Origin: Akkermansia sp.
Lineage (GTDB): Bacteria; Verrucomicrobiota; Verrucomicrobiia; Verrucomicrobiales; Akkermansiaceae
DNA: 64,000 nucleotides
Direction of reading: 5' to 3'
NCBI GenBank assembly: GCA_017398355.1
Contig: JAFQGD010000020.1
Span: forward strand, 1 to 64,000
This document shows positions 21,314 to 28,407 of this stretch, piece by piece. How positions within the stretch are numbered: the stretch's first letter is position 1; each line of letters opens with the position of its first letter. Made by a program: the position numbers and the translations under genes. Below the pieces are notes generated by a model. The model was not told where the DNA came from and did no database searches. It was given only the letters and a program-made list of their open reading frames with translations.

Positions 21314-21321
21314 GAATGCGG

Positions 21322-22608
21322 ATGATACGATACATGTACCTGTTGCTTCTGTTGCTGGGGGGGATGGCCTCCGGGCAGATATTCGACCCGGAGCCGCTGG
21401 ATCCGAATCCGGAGCGCCCCATCCGCCGTGCTGTTCGCTTTCGTGTCATTGACTCTAAGAAAACGGCACCTTCACGCCCGGTTGCCCCTCGGAATGTGGA
21501 GAATAGCCAAGAGACCGGCGCGCCCAGACAAGATGGTACAGTGCCGCGCCAATATACCCGAGTGGCTGTGTTGGGATACCATAATTTTAGTGAAACAGAA
21601 CCGGTGACTAATATGTTGATGCGTACATCGGAGTTCCGCAAGCAGATGGAGCATATCCGGCGCTCGGGAGTCAAAGTCATCAGTATGCAGGAGTTTTTGG
21701 AGTGGCGATTTGGTGCCCGCGATTTGCCCCCCAAGTGCGTGCTCATCACGTTGGATGATGGGTGGGTGAGCGTCTATAAGGAGGCATACCCCATTCTCAA
21801 AGAATACAATTATCCCTTTACTGTCTTTTTGTACACAGATTTCCTTTCCGGGGCGGGGTTGAGTATGTCTCCGGCCATGATTCGTGAGATGCAGAAAAAC
21901 GGTGCTACTGTTGGTAGCCATTCAGTGAATCACTATTATCCCAGTACTTGGGAGGAAGTTGCCAAAAAAAGTGAGCAAGCCTATACAACTTTGATTGACC
22001 AGGAATTAGGGCAGTCTCGCCAAAAACTTGACCGCATGTTTGGCAATGTGAAAACATACTGCTACCCCGGTGGCTATGTGACTCAACCCATGCTGGATCG
22101 CATCATGAGCTACGGCTATGTTGCCGCCTTTACGGTGGTGCCCGGCAAGGTGACCTGCGAGGAGAATCCCTTTAAGATTCACCGCTACATGATTTTTGGT
22201 AACGACCCCTCAATCTTTAAGAATGCCATGGATTTTCGCGTTGCTGAGGTGGGTAAGGTGGTATCTACCGGTTCTACCCCCGGCACGCTTCCCAGCAAGA
22301 CACCTATTCCTCCTTTCCCGGTGCTGCCCAAACCCGGTAGTGCCGTCTCGTGCGAGGTCCCTGAAATTTCTGCTGAACTCAGCGGTGTTCCCGGGATTAA
22401 CCTTGCATCCGTACACATGAAGGTCAGTGGATTTGGCCGCGTGCCTGCGAAAATGGATAAAGCAACTCGTACCATTAGTTGGACTCCGCCCTGCCGAATC
22501 TATATGCCCAATTTATCCGTGCACCTTACTTGGTCTAGCAGCGATGGTACCAGCCACAAGGCTGAGTGGTCGTTTGTCGTGAATCAAGAGGTGCCGGCTC
22601 AACAATGA
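21322..22608 (+). CDS. Secreted polysaccharide deacetylase
   Basis: 428 residues with a signal peptide (MIRYMYLLLLLLGGMASG). After a Pro/Arg-rich linker comes a NodB-type domain (about 85-290): YHNF entry, the metal-site motif TLDDGW, the GSHSVNH zinc-ligand motif, and YCYPGGY. These enzymes remove acetyl groups from peptidoglycan or other polysaccharides. The C-terminal part (about 335-425, with CEVPEISAEL and CRIYMPNLSVHLTW) is beta-rich and may bind substrate. The next gene starts within its stop codon (ATGA), so the two are coupled. Confidence 0.88.
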   Translation: MIRYMYLLLLLLGGMASGQIFDPEPLDPNPERPIRRAVRFRVIDSKKTAPSRPVAPRNVENSQETGAPRQDGTVPRQYTRVAVLGYHNFSETEPVTNMLMRTSEFRKQMEHIRRSGVKVISMQEFLEWRFGARDLPPKCVLITLDDGWVSVYKEAYPILKEYNYPFTVFLYTDFLSGAGLSMSPAMIREMQKNGATVGSHSVNHYYPSTWEEVAKKSEQAYTTLIDQELGQSRQKLDRMFGNVKTYCYPGGYVTQPMLDRIMSYGYVAAFTVVPGKVTCEENPFKIHRYMIFGNDPSIFKNAMDFRVAEVGKVVSTGSTPGTLPSKTPIPPFPVLPKPGSAVSCEVPEISAELSGVPGINLASVHMKVSGFGRVPAKMDKATRTISWTPPCRIYMPNLSVHLTWSSSDGTSHKAEWSFVVNQEVPAQQ

Positions 22609-23906: not shown

Positions 23907-24437
23907 CTAATAATGGCAGGAGCTGCAATTGGTGGGGATGGATTCTTTCCGGTGACAATCCAAACAGGAGTTCATGCTGTGGGGGAGCTGGGCATCCGGG
24001 GTGGGATGGCAGCGGGCGCAATCGAGGCCGGCACGGGTGTGTTGGCCGTGGTGAAAGTGAACATGTGCCGGCAGCGGGGCAGAGCGCACCCAATGGAGGG
24101 GCTCACCTGTGTAGGCGGGGGAATGCGGGTTGGCCGCTGCGTGGAGGGGGGCTAAGCGTGCATCGGCAGATAGCACGTGCTGGTGGCATTGCAGGCATGT
24201 GCTATCCGTGGGCATGCCTGCTCTTGGGGCGGTTTCTGCCCCTTGGTGGCACGCCACACAAGGGATGGCAGTTTTATCTGCTGCTGTGTGGCTGTTGTGG
24301 GTGAAAGGGAGTGGCTGAGTGGGAAGGTGGGGGCGTTCCCGGTAGCCGTAATAGTACACTCCCCCCAGTAGCACTAGGGGGAGTGAGAGAAAGAGCGCAA
24401 TGGTTGCTGCGCGGCTTTTTGTTGCCGTTTCAGGCAT
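23907..24437 (-). CDS. Membrane-anchored pentaheme c-type cytochrome
   Basis: 176 residues. One N-terminal helix (about 11-31) anchors a periplasmic domain with five CxxCH heme sites at residues 60-64, 81-85, 140-144, 158-162 and 171-175, the last ending one residue before the stop. There are several extra His that could be second axial ligands (THNSH, HVHFHH). This resembles the c3/c7-like multiheme electron-transfer family. The gene overlaps the upstream thioredoxin-fold gene by one base and closes a three-gene operon. Its redox partner is not visible here. Confidence 0.9.
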   Translation of the reverse strand: MPETATKSRAATIALFLSLPLVLLGGVYYYGYRERPHLPTQPLPFTHNSHTAADKTAIPCVACHQGAETAPRAGMPTDSTCLQCHQHVLSADARLAPLHAAANPHSPAYTGEPLHWVRSAPLPAHVHFHHGQHTRAGLDCARCHPTPDAQLPHSMNSCLDCHRKESIPTNCSSCHY

Positions 24438-25702
24438 TATTTTTGCTTGATAATCGAAATGCGCCCGTATGAATCACGATTCTGGTTCATATTGAACGTG
24501 ATAAGTAAGCGCGGATTTTTGAGCGGGGCATCCACTTTCAAATCATAGGTATTTTTGTTGTTCTTGATGCCAGTGGAGCCGTCGTGGCGATCTTCTGCCA
24601 CTTTGGTATCGCCGTCGTACAACTCTACGGCTTTAACATAGAGGGCATGGGGGCCTTTCTTGTAGTGGAACACCACGGTGTAGGTGCCGGGACCATCGAT
24701 GGGAAGTCTCCCCTCCAATTCTACGGGTGTTTGGTCCGCCGGTAATACACCGGGTTGCCAGCCATCTTCATAGGTTAGGGTGGCGGCCCATTCTCGCTCT
24801 GCAATGGCAGCGGAGCGCCCCAGAACGGTATCTTTGCCGTATGATTCGAGTTTGCGGGCGTATTCTCTCATGCGCTTAGATGCTTCGGGACCACCGACGC
24901 GGCGCAGGGTACCAATGGCGCATGCGCAGAACACCTGCTTCTGATCGTCCGTGTAAGCGGGGTCAGCCAGCATAGTGTCCAATTCTTTCAGCACTTCAGC
25001 GGGGTCTTCTTTGATTTTCTTTTCAACAAATCCCCACGGGTTGAATGTGACTTGACGAACCACGCCGCTTTCATCGTTGGGGTCGGCTGCGCGCAGCTGC
25101 TTTTCGTAGTTATCCGGGCGGTTGATGTCCTTCAAATTACAAGCTTTGGCAATGAGGCGCGCTTTGTCTACCCCCTTGGCTTCTGCAGCTTGGCGCATGA
25201 GCTCATCCTGTTCGCGCTTAGCTGCCATGCGTTCTTTGATAAGCTTGGCTACCTTGGCAGGTTTTGCCTTGGTCATATAGGTGCCGCAGATGGTAGAGTA
25301 GTGGCGCCCGTTGCGATCAAAGAGAAGAAGTGCAGGGTAATTGTCTGCATTGGGTATTTTGAGGCCTTCCCACTGAGCGTTAAATGCTTTGCGAGCATCG
25401 TCATCAAGCGCTTGCGGCAGGGCATAGGGGATGCGGACTGCCTGCCCGGCAGCTTTGGCAACTTCTTTGTTTTTGTACAGCTTGAGGGCAACTTTTTTGC
25501 CGTAAGTATCCCAGCCGTCGGCATAAGCAAAGAGGATATAGCCATCATCGGTAACTTTGGCTTTGGCTTCCTCCATGCTAATGACTTTGACGGTAGGATT
25601 ATCTGCTGCGGCTTTCGCCTTTTTGGCCTCATTAGCCGTGTATCCTTTGTACAGGGCGCATGCTGCGACGAGAAGGGCTGCAACTATCAGTACTTTTTTC
25701 AT
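24437..25702 (-). CDS. Envelope thioredoxin-fold protein without CxxC
   Basis: 421 residues. The N-terminus has a hydrophobic segment with a possible lipobox VAAC (12-15). Residues about 38-165 follow a thioredoxin-like pattern (ILFAYADGWDTYGKK, then YPALLLFDRNGRH), but where the CxxC should be the sequence is GWDT, so redox activity is unlikely. A helical middle section is followed by a beta-rich C-terminal domain (about 315-420, with GPGTYTVVFHYKKG and PLKNPRLLITFNMN). It lies 34 nt downstream of the transglutaminase-like gene and overlaps the cytochrome gene. Role unknown, probably structural or binding in that operon. Confidence 0.75.
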   Translation of the reverse strand: MKKVLIVAALLVAACALYKGYTANEAKKAKAAADNPTVKVISMEEAKAKVTDDGYILFAYADGWDTYGKKVALKLYKNKEVAKAAGQAVRIPYALPQALDDDARKAFNAQWEGLKIPNADNYPALLLFDRNGRHYSTICGTYMTKAKPAKVAKLIKERMAAKREQDELMRQAAEAKGVDKARLIAKACNLKDINRPDNYEKQLRAADPNDESGVVRQVTFNPWGFVEKKIKEDPAEVLKELDTMLADPAYTDDQKQVFCACAIGTLRRVGGPEASKRMREYARKLESYGKDTVLGRSAAIAEREWAATLTYEDGWQPGVLPADQTPVELEGRLPIDGPGTYTVVFHYKKGPHALYVKAVELYDGDTKVAEDRHDGSTGIKNNKNTYDLKVDAPLKNPRLLITFNMNQNRDSYGRISIIKQK

Positions 25703-25736
25703 TTTCTTGTTGAGTAAAGGTTACACAGGTTATGGC

Positions 25737-28193
25737 TTACGCGGCTTGTTCGCCATACACGTAGATAGCGTTGAGGTGGAAGAAATCCGGGCCTCCGGTA
25801 CGCACGATTCGTACATACTTGGCTCGGGGTTTTTTATCTCCCAGGTCCACTTGGATGACGCGTTGCTTGCAGGGGCCGAGTTCTGCCACATCCTGCCAGT
25901 CATCGTCCTTGCCGGTTTCGGATACCTGCACTTTCATGTTGTGGAGGCGTTGGGTGTTGCCGGAGGTGGCGATGATGACTACACCGGTGACAAATGCTTG
26001 CTTAGGCAGCAGGACGGATACCCAGGGGTTTTCTTCCTTTTTGGTGTGGAAATGACCACCTACCGGTTCCAACAGCCCCCAGTGCCCACAGGCTGTTTCG
26101 TGGGAGGAGGAACTGGTGCGCACCAAGCCTCCTTGTGACATGAGTTTGCCGGGGTAGGGCTTGTGCGGTGGCATTTTGGCCTCCGGTGCGGTAAACTTGG
26201 GGGAAAGTAATTTGCCCAGAGATTGGAAAGTTGTTATGTCTTCCATTTGTTCAGCTGCCGTAATAGCCGGGGCCAGAATCTTATCGCGGTCTTCAGCAGC
26301 CAAACCTTCACCTTTACTGATGCCGCTTACCGTGGCTGCCATGAACTGCTTCTTGATATCATCGGATTGCTTCTCAGCGAGCTTGTTGCCCCAGCTGAGA
26401 ACGATGGGGGGGTAAACCGCTTTGGAAGCAACAGCACCCAGTACATCTGCATAGAAAGCGCAGAGAGCAGCGGGCTCTTTGTTGATTTGGGGTAATAGTT
26501 TTTTCTGCTCGTCGCACATTTTTTCGACATCCCAGCGGGCCGGTCCCATATCTTTGACCTTTTCCCAGAATGCTACACACTCTGTGCGCAGGGCGGCTTC
26601 GTCCATGGCCTTAGCCATGGGGGTGTACGCATACTGCTGGAGAATATCTGCCGCGATTTCAGGCCAATCAGCAGCCATCGCAGAACAGAGGTCGCGGTTG
26701 AATTTCCTCCAAGCTTCGGTATCTGTGGGTGCTTTTGCCTCCAAATAGCGTGCATATTCGCGCCATGCCGGGTAGTTGAGCGGCTGGGCTTTCACTGCGT
26801 TGTCATAGCATTCGCGGGCTTTGGTATCATCACTCTTGGCGTAGATGCCAGCCAGTGCGCGGTATGCATTGGACAGACGCGTGTTTTCTGCTTCTTCATC
26901 AGAGAAAAGCTTGGTGGCCAAGTGCAGGGTGGTGTATCGGTAGTTGCCAACCCATGGGTTCCAGTGTAAACCGCGTTTCCAGTCTACGGAGTAGGAGGGA
27001 ACCCACTTGTCGCCTACGAGTACGACATAGGCGCAGTGGCCGGGCTCACCCATTGTCATCGCGGGTACACCGTTGGCCAAGGCAGAGAATGCGCCAAAGT
27101 GGGAGAGGCTACCGCATACGCCACCCACCTCGTAGGTGAACTTGGCGCGGTTGCGGCCGTAGTGATCATCAAAGGGCTGGTTGTAACCGGGGCCATGGAT
27201 GCTCTGCCCATACAGGTTGTATAGCTTGTAGCCACAGCGCCAGCAACAGCCGGTAAATTGCTCGGCCGGCAGGTGCACGTTGTCCAAGCTCCATTGCAGG
27301 CTTTCTACGCTGCCGAAGTTGTTGTCACCCTTGCAGCCCACCACCATGCGGCGCTGCCAGAAGGGCAGGGTATCAAACACTTTGTTGAGACGGCCGGCTC
27401 GCCAGTTTTTCAGGTAGTAGCCCACGCGATCCAAGGCTTCATTGTGCTGCCAGCCGTACTTTGCGAACTCGAGGGCGGCAGCGGTGGCGATGTCGCGTTC
27501 CATCTGGTTGTAGATGATATCCGGTTGCTTAGCGACAATGTCTGCCAGAATGGCCAGTGCGGTTCCAACTCTTTGCGTGTCGCCCGTCCATACAAATTGC
27601 TCTGCCCAATCCAAATTGTTACCAATTTGTTCCATCAACTTGCCGGCTCCCGGCGCGCTGATGCCCTCCAGGATGGAGTGGGCTTGCATCGCTTCGGCTT
27701 CCAGTTTCTCCAGCTCTGCTTTTTTGTTTTTGAGCTGTACACCCAAGCGAGATTCCGGATTTAAACCGCCGGGATTATCTTTTTCAATCTCAGCAATTTC
27801 GCCTTTGAATCGTTCAATTTTCTTGGCTAGTTCATCCTCACTTTTCTTCAATATTTCTTCGGAACCAATTTCGTATTGCGCCAGCATCCACTGGGCCAAT
27901 AAGAGACGATTTTGGGGTTGAAGGAGGAAGTTTTTGACCGCTTCCGGAGAAGTGCTGCTCAGGCCTTTTAAAATGTCTTGTTCAACCTTGGTTTGCACGG
28001 AATCAGGCTCCGCCCAGTCCATGCCTTTGAGGTTGTTACCAATGTGTGAGCCCGGAACCGGGCGACCTGCTCCCATGCATTCCTGTGCTTTTTGACACAG
28101 GTTTTCGAGGAGCCCCGGATCATATAAATACAGACCACCTGCTGCTATTGCCAACAGTAGGGAGCCATTCAGAATAATGTTGCCTATTTTCAT
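25737..28193 (-). CDS. Large exported transglutaminase-like / discoidin-domain protein
   Basis: 818 residues. An N-terminal helix (about 5-24) is a signal or anchor. A helical and coiled-coil part (about 65-260) is followed by a core at about 285-410 that looks transglutaminase-like, with a Cys-His-Asp order: GGVCGSLSHF (Cys360), GEPGHCAYVV (His386) and SYSVDW (Asp404). A TPR-like section (about 425-480) and a helical part come next. The end (about 695-815) is an F5/8 type C (discoidin) beta-sandwich (NPWVSVLLPKQAFVTGVVI, RAKYVRIVRTGG), which in other proteins binds sugars. Cross-linking, protease or peptidoglycan-related activity is possible; the substrate is unknown. First gene of the operon with the thioredoxin-fold and cytochrome genes. 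Confidence 0.78.
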   Translation of the reverse strand: MKIGNIILNGSLLLAIAAGGLYLYDPGLLENLCQKAQECMGAGRPVPGSHIGNNLKGMDWAEPDSVQTKVEQDILKGLSSTSPEAVKNFLLQPQNRLLLAQWMLAQYEIGSEEILKKSEDELAKKIERFKGEIAEIEKDNPGGLNPESRLGVQLKNKKAELEKLEAEAMQAHSILEGISAPGAGKLMEQIGNNLDWAEQFVWTGDTQRVGTALAILADIVAKQPDIIYNQMERDIATAAALEFAKYGWQHNEALDRVGYYLKNWRAGRLNKVFDTLPFWQRRMVVGCKGDNNFGSVESLQWSLDNVHLPAEQFTGCCWRCGYKLYNLYGQSIHGPGYNQPFDDHYGRNRAKFTYEVGGVCGSLSHFGAFSALANGVPAMTMGEPGHCAYVVLVGDKWVPSYSVDWKRGLHWNPWVGNYRYTTLHLATKLFSDEEAENTRLSNAYRALAGIYAKSDDTKARECYDNAVKAQPLNYPAWREYARYLEAKAPTDTEAWRKFNRDLCSAMAADWPEIAADILQQYAYTPMAKAMDEAALRTECVAFWEKVKDMGPARWDVEKMCDEQKKLLPQINKEPAALCAFYADVLGAVASKAVYPPIVLSWGNKLAEKQSDDIKKQFMAATVSGISKGEGLAAEDRDKILAPAITAAEQMEDITTFQSLGKLLSPKFTAPEAKMPPHKPYPGKLMSQGGLVRTSSSSHETACGHWGLLEPVGGHFHTKKEENPWVSVLLPKQAFVTGVVIIATSGNTQRLHNMKVQVSETGKDDDWQDVAELGPCKQRVIQVDLGDKKPRAKYVRIVRTGGPDFFHLNAIYVYGEQAA

Positions 28194-28210: not shown

Positions 28211-28239
28211 ATTCTATTTTTTGGCTCTTGAATGGTCAA
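28211..28239 (-). promoter_or_regulatory. Promoter of the transglutaminase-like operon
   Basis: Minus strand: TTGACC (28234-28239), 17 bp, TAGAAT (28211-28216). The ATG at 28193 gives a leader of about 12 nt. Confidence 0.7.
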
Positions 28240-28310: not shown

Positions 28311-28333
28311 CTTTGGTGTCTGTTCTTAGAGAG

Positions 28334-28407
28334 AGGCGGGAGTGGGATTTGAACCCACGAATGTCGGTTTTGCAAACCGATGCCTTAGGCCACTTGGCTA
28401 TCCCGCC
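28334..28407 (-). tRNA. tRNA-Cys (anticodon GCA)
   Basis: Acceptor GGCGGGA/TCCCGCC, anticodon stem TCGGT/ACCGA with loop TTGCAAA (anticodon GCA), T arm GTGGG-TTCAAAT-CCCAC. No encoded CCA. Confidence 0.95.

Follow-up and report, generated by a model that had tools for sequence, protein, structure and literature searches.

In Alternative Complex III (ACIII), electrons pass from quinol to the clusters of ActB, then to the hemes of ActA and on to a c-type acceptor, and the complex of Rhodothermus marinus carries a lineage-specific periplasmic extra subunit, ActH (PMC5928083). ACIII genes were also reported in the genomes covered by a study of freshwater Verrucomicrobia. Here, we analysed a window from Akkermansia sp., that is, the whole stretch of 64,000 nucleotides, taken from a source genome of 2.26 Mb, in which a gene for a pentaheme protein follows two other genes. 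Akkermansia is a genus known for life on mucin. One actABCDEF cluster is the usual gene organisation of ACIII and not a defining property of the ActA protein. The transglutaminase-like superfamily (PF01841), with which the first of the two other proteins is compared below, includes peptide N-glycanases.

Three closely spaced genes in the window

The genes were designated P1, P2 and P3 and are listed here with a candidate promoter.

28211 to 28239, minus strand: candidate sigma-70-type operon promoter, TTGACC-N17-TAGAAT (weak; from a consensus scan)
25737 to 28193, minus strand: P1 gene, 818 aa (open reading frame, AlphaFold2 model, alignment of a family of 34, Foldseek/VIA)
24437 to 25702, minus strand: P2 gene, 421 aa (open reading frame, AlphaFold2 model, family alignment)
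23907 to 24437, minus strand: P3 gene (actA), 176 aa (phmmer, invariant heme ligands, exact co-occurrence with ActB and ActC)

P1 and P2 are separated by 34 bp and P2 and P3 overlap by 1 nt (TAATG), in agreement with the three overlapping or close genes described in an earlier sequence-only reading. The nearest relative is a goat-gut isolate, Akkermansia sp. RGIG3082 from goat rectum (the sole relative from the contig scan), and dN/dS against it was 0.07 for P1, 0.07 for P2 and 0.12 for P3. All three are real, correctly placed genes under purifying selection. That reading had also put them under one promoter, a claim that rests on a single TTGACC-N17-TAGAAT site (28239-28211) and was not confirmed, as the scan for promoters and terminators gave no more sites than expected from shuffled sequence. 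A tRNA-Cys gene (28333-28407, minus) immediately precedes P1 in the same orientation, and on the plus strand (21316-22608) there is a 430-aa exported open reading frame that appears polysaccharide deacetylase-like, as judged by eye only.

P3 is the ActA subunit of ACIII

When P3 was compared with the PDB by phmmer, the A subunits of four ACIII structures were matched at 4e-19 to 6e-17 (6btm_A, 4e-19; 6f0k_A, 6e-19; also 8k9e_A and 6lod_A), and the matches after these, cytochrome c7 and others, were at 0.008 or above. P3 contains five CxxCH motifs, as had been counted from the letters, and all five are invariant in 18 aligned ActA sequences, as are His47, His50, His130 and His133 (18/18). The N-terminus of P3 is a hydrophobic (membrane) segment, and a stretch of about 46-58 residues found between hemes IV and V of the other ActA proteins of the genus is absent. 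ActA proteins of the window's type form a single clade in the tree, with support of 100/99.

The distribution of the partner families was then compared in a genus sample of 37 genomes of Akkermansia or very near. ActA, the NrfD family (including ActC) and the Fer4_11 family (including ActB) are present in the identical 14 genomes (G000, which is the genome of the window, G002, G004, G006, G013, G015, G017, G022, G024, G028, G029, G030, G033 and G036), and all three are absent from the other 23. Taken together, the structural matches, the invariant heme ligands and this exact co-occurrence identify P3 as ActA, the ACIII subunit that carries five hemes.

Two other identities were rejected. As a QrcA (menaquinone reductase) subunit, P3 matched NCBIfam QrcA at 3e-11 with only 43 bits against a cut-off of 180, and the match of ActB and ActC to ACIII structures also excludes it. 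That P3 is a stand-alone cytochrome, recruited for electron transfer outside the cell, is ruled out by the exact co-occurrence of ActA with ActB and ActC.

Scattered ACIII genes and terminal oxidases

The genes for the partners of P3 lie on other contigs of the window's genome. ActB (703 aa; L121:3033-5144, contig C2) matches 6f0k_B at 2e-84, and ActC (L103:8956-10314, contig C42) matches ACIII C subunits only (6f0k_C, 1.7e-56). With actA on contig C15, the ACIII genes are split over three contigs, and no single actABCDEF cluster is present in this genome. In the genus members examined, actA or actA-actB lies apart from actC onward; in A. muciniphila-like genomes, actA adjoins actB, and actC and its followers are elsewhere. 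In most relatives within the order, actA is within about 5 kb of actC. G030 (L122) has P1-P2-ActA-ActB in one row, plausibly an earlier state, and in G015 ActD is fused to ActC.

A gene for a monoheme cytochrome c with a multi-TM region was observed right after actC in the window's genome (L103:10311-11345), and the contig ends soon after it. In G015, an 813-aa multi-TM protein is encoded downstream of actCDEF-like genes (L106:3345-5786); it has CcoO/CcoP-like c-heme stretches and no COX1 match and is possibly a degenerate cbb3-like fusion.

COX1-type heme-copper oxidase was found in none of the 37 genus genomes, though 14 of them carry ACIII, and it was present in all of the order relatives searched (22/22). 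A bd oxidase was detected in 20 of the 24 genus genomes tested, and the search for NrfA returned weak multiheme matches only.

P1-P2-ActA is an old operon in part of the genus

P1, P2 and ActA are adjacent in 7/8 genomes of the sub-clade that has the window's type of ActA, and in the goat relative. The spacing between P2 and ActA in these trios ranges from -4 to +28 nt, with the two genes touching or overlapping in 6/8, and the trio is conserved even between deeply diverged genomes (45-57% identity). In the more distant genomes, the 8-19 kb examined around the trio contained no gene from the window's flanks, so the trio has been kept against a rearranged background. The check proposed in the sequence-only reading, whether the three-gene order holds across Verrucomicrobiota, had a mixed outcome: the order is kept in this sub-clade and the goat relative, but phylum-wide only P1-P2 is kept. 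P1-P2-ActA is thus a genuine old operon in part of the genus Akkermansia. Its tight spacing over such divergence with changed flanks goes beyond passive neighbourhood and may reflect some functional coupling in this lineage.

The three genes could instead be chance neighbours that share no transcription, as the promoter and terminator signals are no better than chance and the act genes are scattered in the genus anyway. However, this is highly improbable given that the order survives in seven divergent genomes and the goat relative with other neighbours around it, and that P2 and ActA touch or overlap in most trios.

P1-P2 is a two-gene module independent of ACIII

A P2 homologue is the next gene on the same strand for 102 of 112 strong P1 homologues, with a gap of 20-241 nt; of the ten without P2 next, three are split matches in which the second half is then followed by P2. 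The P1-P2 pair occurs in 34/37 genus genomes, which comprise all 23 ACIII-less genomes and 11/14 ACIII-bearing ones, and also in G041, a member of the order. In G046, of the same order, one protein of 1438 aa (L119:1798-6114) holds both in a single chain, in which a P2-like part (thioredoxin, beta-sandwich) precedes a P1-like part (core, F5/8 domain), and because the two are fused in this way, P1 and P2 are read as a working pair. Across the phylum, the P1 profile matched in 63 of the 288 genomes sampled, some in the F5/8 part only. ActA and the P1-P2 pair are at different loci in G029. In a contig of that genome (L126, C82), the translation at the low end reads CLLYTSPSP, which is sequencing-adapter-like, and this contig end is unreliable.

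These results show that P1-P2 is a module independent of ACIII, and the pair is a clear, previously undescribed family. Our search of the literature on Akkermansia and transglutaminase-like proteins returned none, and no described function of P1-P2 was found among the papers covered. An anchored electron-transfer or surface-modifying complex of all three proteins, which had been one idea of the sequence-only reading, is unlikely because P1-P2 persists where ACIII has been lost, in all 23 such genomes of the genus sample. The other idea, in which the operon had simply recruited the heme protein, came close: ActA is joined to a P1-P2 module that stands on its own.

The ActA-linked copies of P1 do not form a single clade (AU p 7e-5); in the tree, they are intermingled with P1 copies of genomes that lack ACIII. 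This is most simply explained if P1-P2 was joined to ActA once, long ago, and ACIII was afterwards lost several times while P1-P2 was retained on each occasion; separate joins are a possible alternative.

We also considered whether P1-P2 serves ACIII as an accessory or assembly factor specific to this lineage, with P1 and P2 docking on ActA and the operon keeping their stoichiometry. A touching or overlapping trio that was kept while its flanks changed would fit such a factor, as would the N-terminal export or anchor segment in each of P1, P2 and P3, and the helical ActH of R. marinus offers a precedent (PMC5928083). We consider it unlikely, however, since P1-P2 occurs in all genomes of the genus sample that lack ACIII and is missing from three that carry it, the ActA-linked P1s form no clade of their own, and the two parts are at separate loci in G029.

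P1 combines a candidate Cys-His enzyme core with a lectin-like domain

The AlphaFold2 model of P1 (pLDDT 88.6) has, in order, an N-terminal anchor, a helical region, a transglutaminase-like core, TPR-like helices and a C-terminal F5/8-type domain.

26961 to 27446, minus strand: P1 residues 250-411, putative transglutaminase-like core (invariant Cys/His/Trp, hhalign, weak distant Transglut_core)
27114 to 27116, minus strand: Cys360 codon
27036 to 27038, minus strand: His386 codon
25740 to 26156, minus strand: P1 residues 680-818, F5/8 type C / F-lectin / CBM32-like domain (VIA, Pfam)

A Cys-His-Asp triad of Cys360, His386 and Asp404 had been proposed. Two of its members stood, as Cys360 and His386 are invariant in the family (34/34) and, together with Trp397, in 62/62 homologues across the phylum. 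The third did not, as position 404 is Asp in only 3/34 members and Ser in 28/34, and no acid takes its place in the P1 family. The usual Asp position of transglutaminases, which we take to be four residues after the invariant Trp (W-x-x-x-D), is Tyr401 in P1, and among the 62 homologues it is occupied by Tyr (45), Asn (7), Phe (6), Leu (3) or Ala (1).

Pfam Transglut_core (PF01841) gave no match in the window's P1 up to an E-value of 1 and was absent from the 25 families most often matched in the 34 members; it appeared weakly, under the cut-off, in the distant members L137 (9e-4) and L132 (0.013). By hhalign, the P1 core aligned with transglutaminase-like proteins of related genomes (Prob 50%, pairwise E 1.6e-4), with its Cys on the catalytic Cys. 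Transglutaminases were not listed in the structure search with whole P1, where the lists were filled by the lectin domain and helical repeats, and the matches to BIRC6 in that search were discarded as repeat matches. We call the core transglutaminase-like with a Cys-His dyad, and a candidate enzyme, because the Cys and His are conserved, the Asp is not, and the Transglut_core and hhalign matches are weak.

At the C-terminus, the sugar-binding-type domain that had been read from the letters was confirmed: residues 680-818 gave VIA Z 16.8 to fucolectin 3cqo (136 residues, rmsd 2.0) and Z 15.4 to the lectin domain of lectinolysin, and Pfam F5_F8_type_C matched at 1e-5, just under the cut-off.

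P2 is a thioredoxin fold that lacks CxxC

P2 (AlphaFold2 pLDDT 89.5) consists of an export segment, a thioredoxin fold, a helical linker and a C-terminal beta-sandwich, with a candidate lipobox VAAC at residues 12-15. A search of Pfam and NCBIfam with P2 returned nothing informative.

25223 to 25591, minus strand: P2 residues 38-160, DsbH/DsbD-C-like thioredoxin fold that lacks CxxC (VIA, profile search)
24443 to 24772, minus strand: P2 residues 311-420, beta-sandwich (VIA, hmmsearch)

Residues 38-160 gave VIA Z 10.2 to DsbH (2ju5, 117 residues) and Z 8.3 to DsbD-C (1vrs_D), and weak profile matches to 2ju5 (1.9e-4) and DsbD (0.004). CxxC was found in none of 33 family members, so that the earlier call of a thioredoxin fold without this motif was right. 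The beta-sandwich (residues 311-420) is homologous to the C-terminal domain of an A. muciniphila beta-N-acetylhexosaminidase, with VIA Z 14.6 and 26% identity to 8pxu and an hmmsearch match of 4.4e-13 to 8pxt/8pxu; in the search with P2 itself, this region also matches a GH89/NAGLU-type protein of about 850 aa in G004.

P1 could also be a pseudoenzyme that has lost its acid and whose core only binds peptide or glycan, in which case P1-P2 would be a structural or adhesive surface pair. The residues at the Asp position, the loss of the redox motif from P2 and the glycan-binding-type domains in both proteins are consistent with this. On the other hand, Cys360 and His386 are invariant over the whole phylum, which is not obviously needed for binding alone, and papain-like folds include enzymes that are active with a Cys-His dyad or a Cys-His-Asn site. 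We regard a pseudoenzyme as a somewhat doubtful but real possibility; it concerns the mechanism of P1 and is compatible with what is proposed below for ActA.

A model for the locus

The most probable explanation is that one old operon holds two functionally separate things, the P1-P2 envelope module and the ActA of ACIII, and is not a new electron-transfer machine. We infer the topology of P1-P2, the catalysis by P1, the role of P2 and the reason for the coupling to ActA as follows. P1 would be a membrane-anchored protein resembling the transglutaminase superfamily, in which a Cys360/His386 dyad is combined with a lectin-like domain at the C-terminus. P2, exported or lipidated and presumably redox-inactive, would be its dedicated partner, most likely holding or positioning P1, and would carry a beta-sandwich of the type that Akkermansia attaches to a glycosidase. 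The pair may sit on the periplasmic or outer-membrane side and bind glycan or glycoprotein, and P1 may cleave or transfer an amide or ester bond via Cys360, with no redox chemistry; as the carrier of the pair's only invariant reactive residues, P1 would be the catalytic partner and P2 the structural one. ActA would take electrons from ActB within ACIII, with the genes of its partner subunits at other loci of this genome. What the operon link probably provides is co-expression rather than the assembly of one machine; the P2 stop and the ActA start touch or overlap in 6/8 trios.

A more far-reaching version would make P1-P2 a two-component envelope enzyme, a lectin-tethered Cys-His transferase or hydrolase with a redox-dead thioredoxin, that in the ActA-linked lineage now helps to assemble or stabilise a slimmed-down ACIII operating with no heme-copper oxidase; we think this quite improbable.

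The preferred explanation, one operon with two separate functions, recasts what was an unknown combination as two statements that can be tested, one on the ACIII of Akkermansia and one on the P1-P2 module. Many Akkermansia species have an ACIII whose genes are scattered and lack a heme-copper oxidase to go with it, which raises the question of its electron acceptor. The module, in turn, is phylum-wide and multi-copy; in a genus that lives on mucin, it brings an invariant Cys-His site together with a thioredoxin that is redox-dead and with domains of glycan-binding type.

Comparison with known systems

P1 resembles members of the transglutaminase-like superfamily (PF01841) in that its invariant Cys lies at the beginning of a helix and is followed by a strand that carries an invariant His, and by a Trp that is likewise invariant. 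In contrast to that superfamily, it lacks a conserved Asp, gives no family match over the Pfam cut-off, and its putative core shares the chain with TPR-like helices and an F5/8 domain. The fold of P1 residues 680-818 is common to F-lectins and CBM32 (3cqo, 3lek and 2v72; Z 12.9-16.8), at 18-20% identity. P2 shares its thioredoxin fold with the C-terminal domains of DsbH and DsbD (2ju5, 1vrs_D), but both active-site cysteines are missing across the P2 family, and P2 adds C-terminal helical and beta-sandwich parts. Unlike the A. muciniphila beta-N-acetylhexosaminidase (8pxt/8pxu), P2 has no glycosidase domain. P3 has the five CxxCH hemes, extra invariant His residues and N-terminal hydrophobic anchor of the ActA of ACIII (6btm_A, 6f0k_A; PMC5928083), and differs from known ActA in that it has 176 aa and its gene lies outside an actABCDEF cluster, behind P1-P2.
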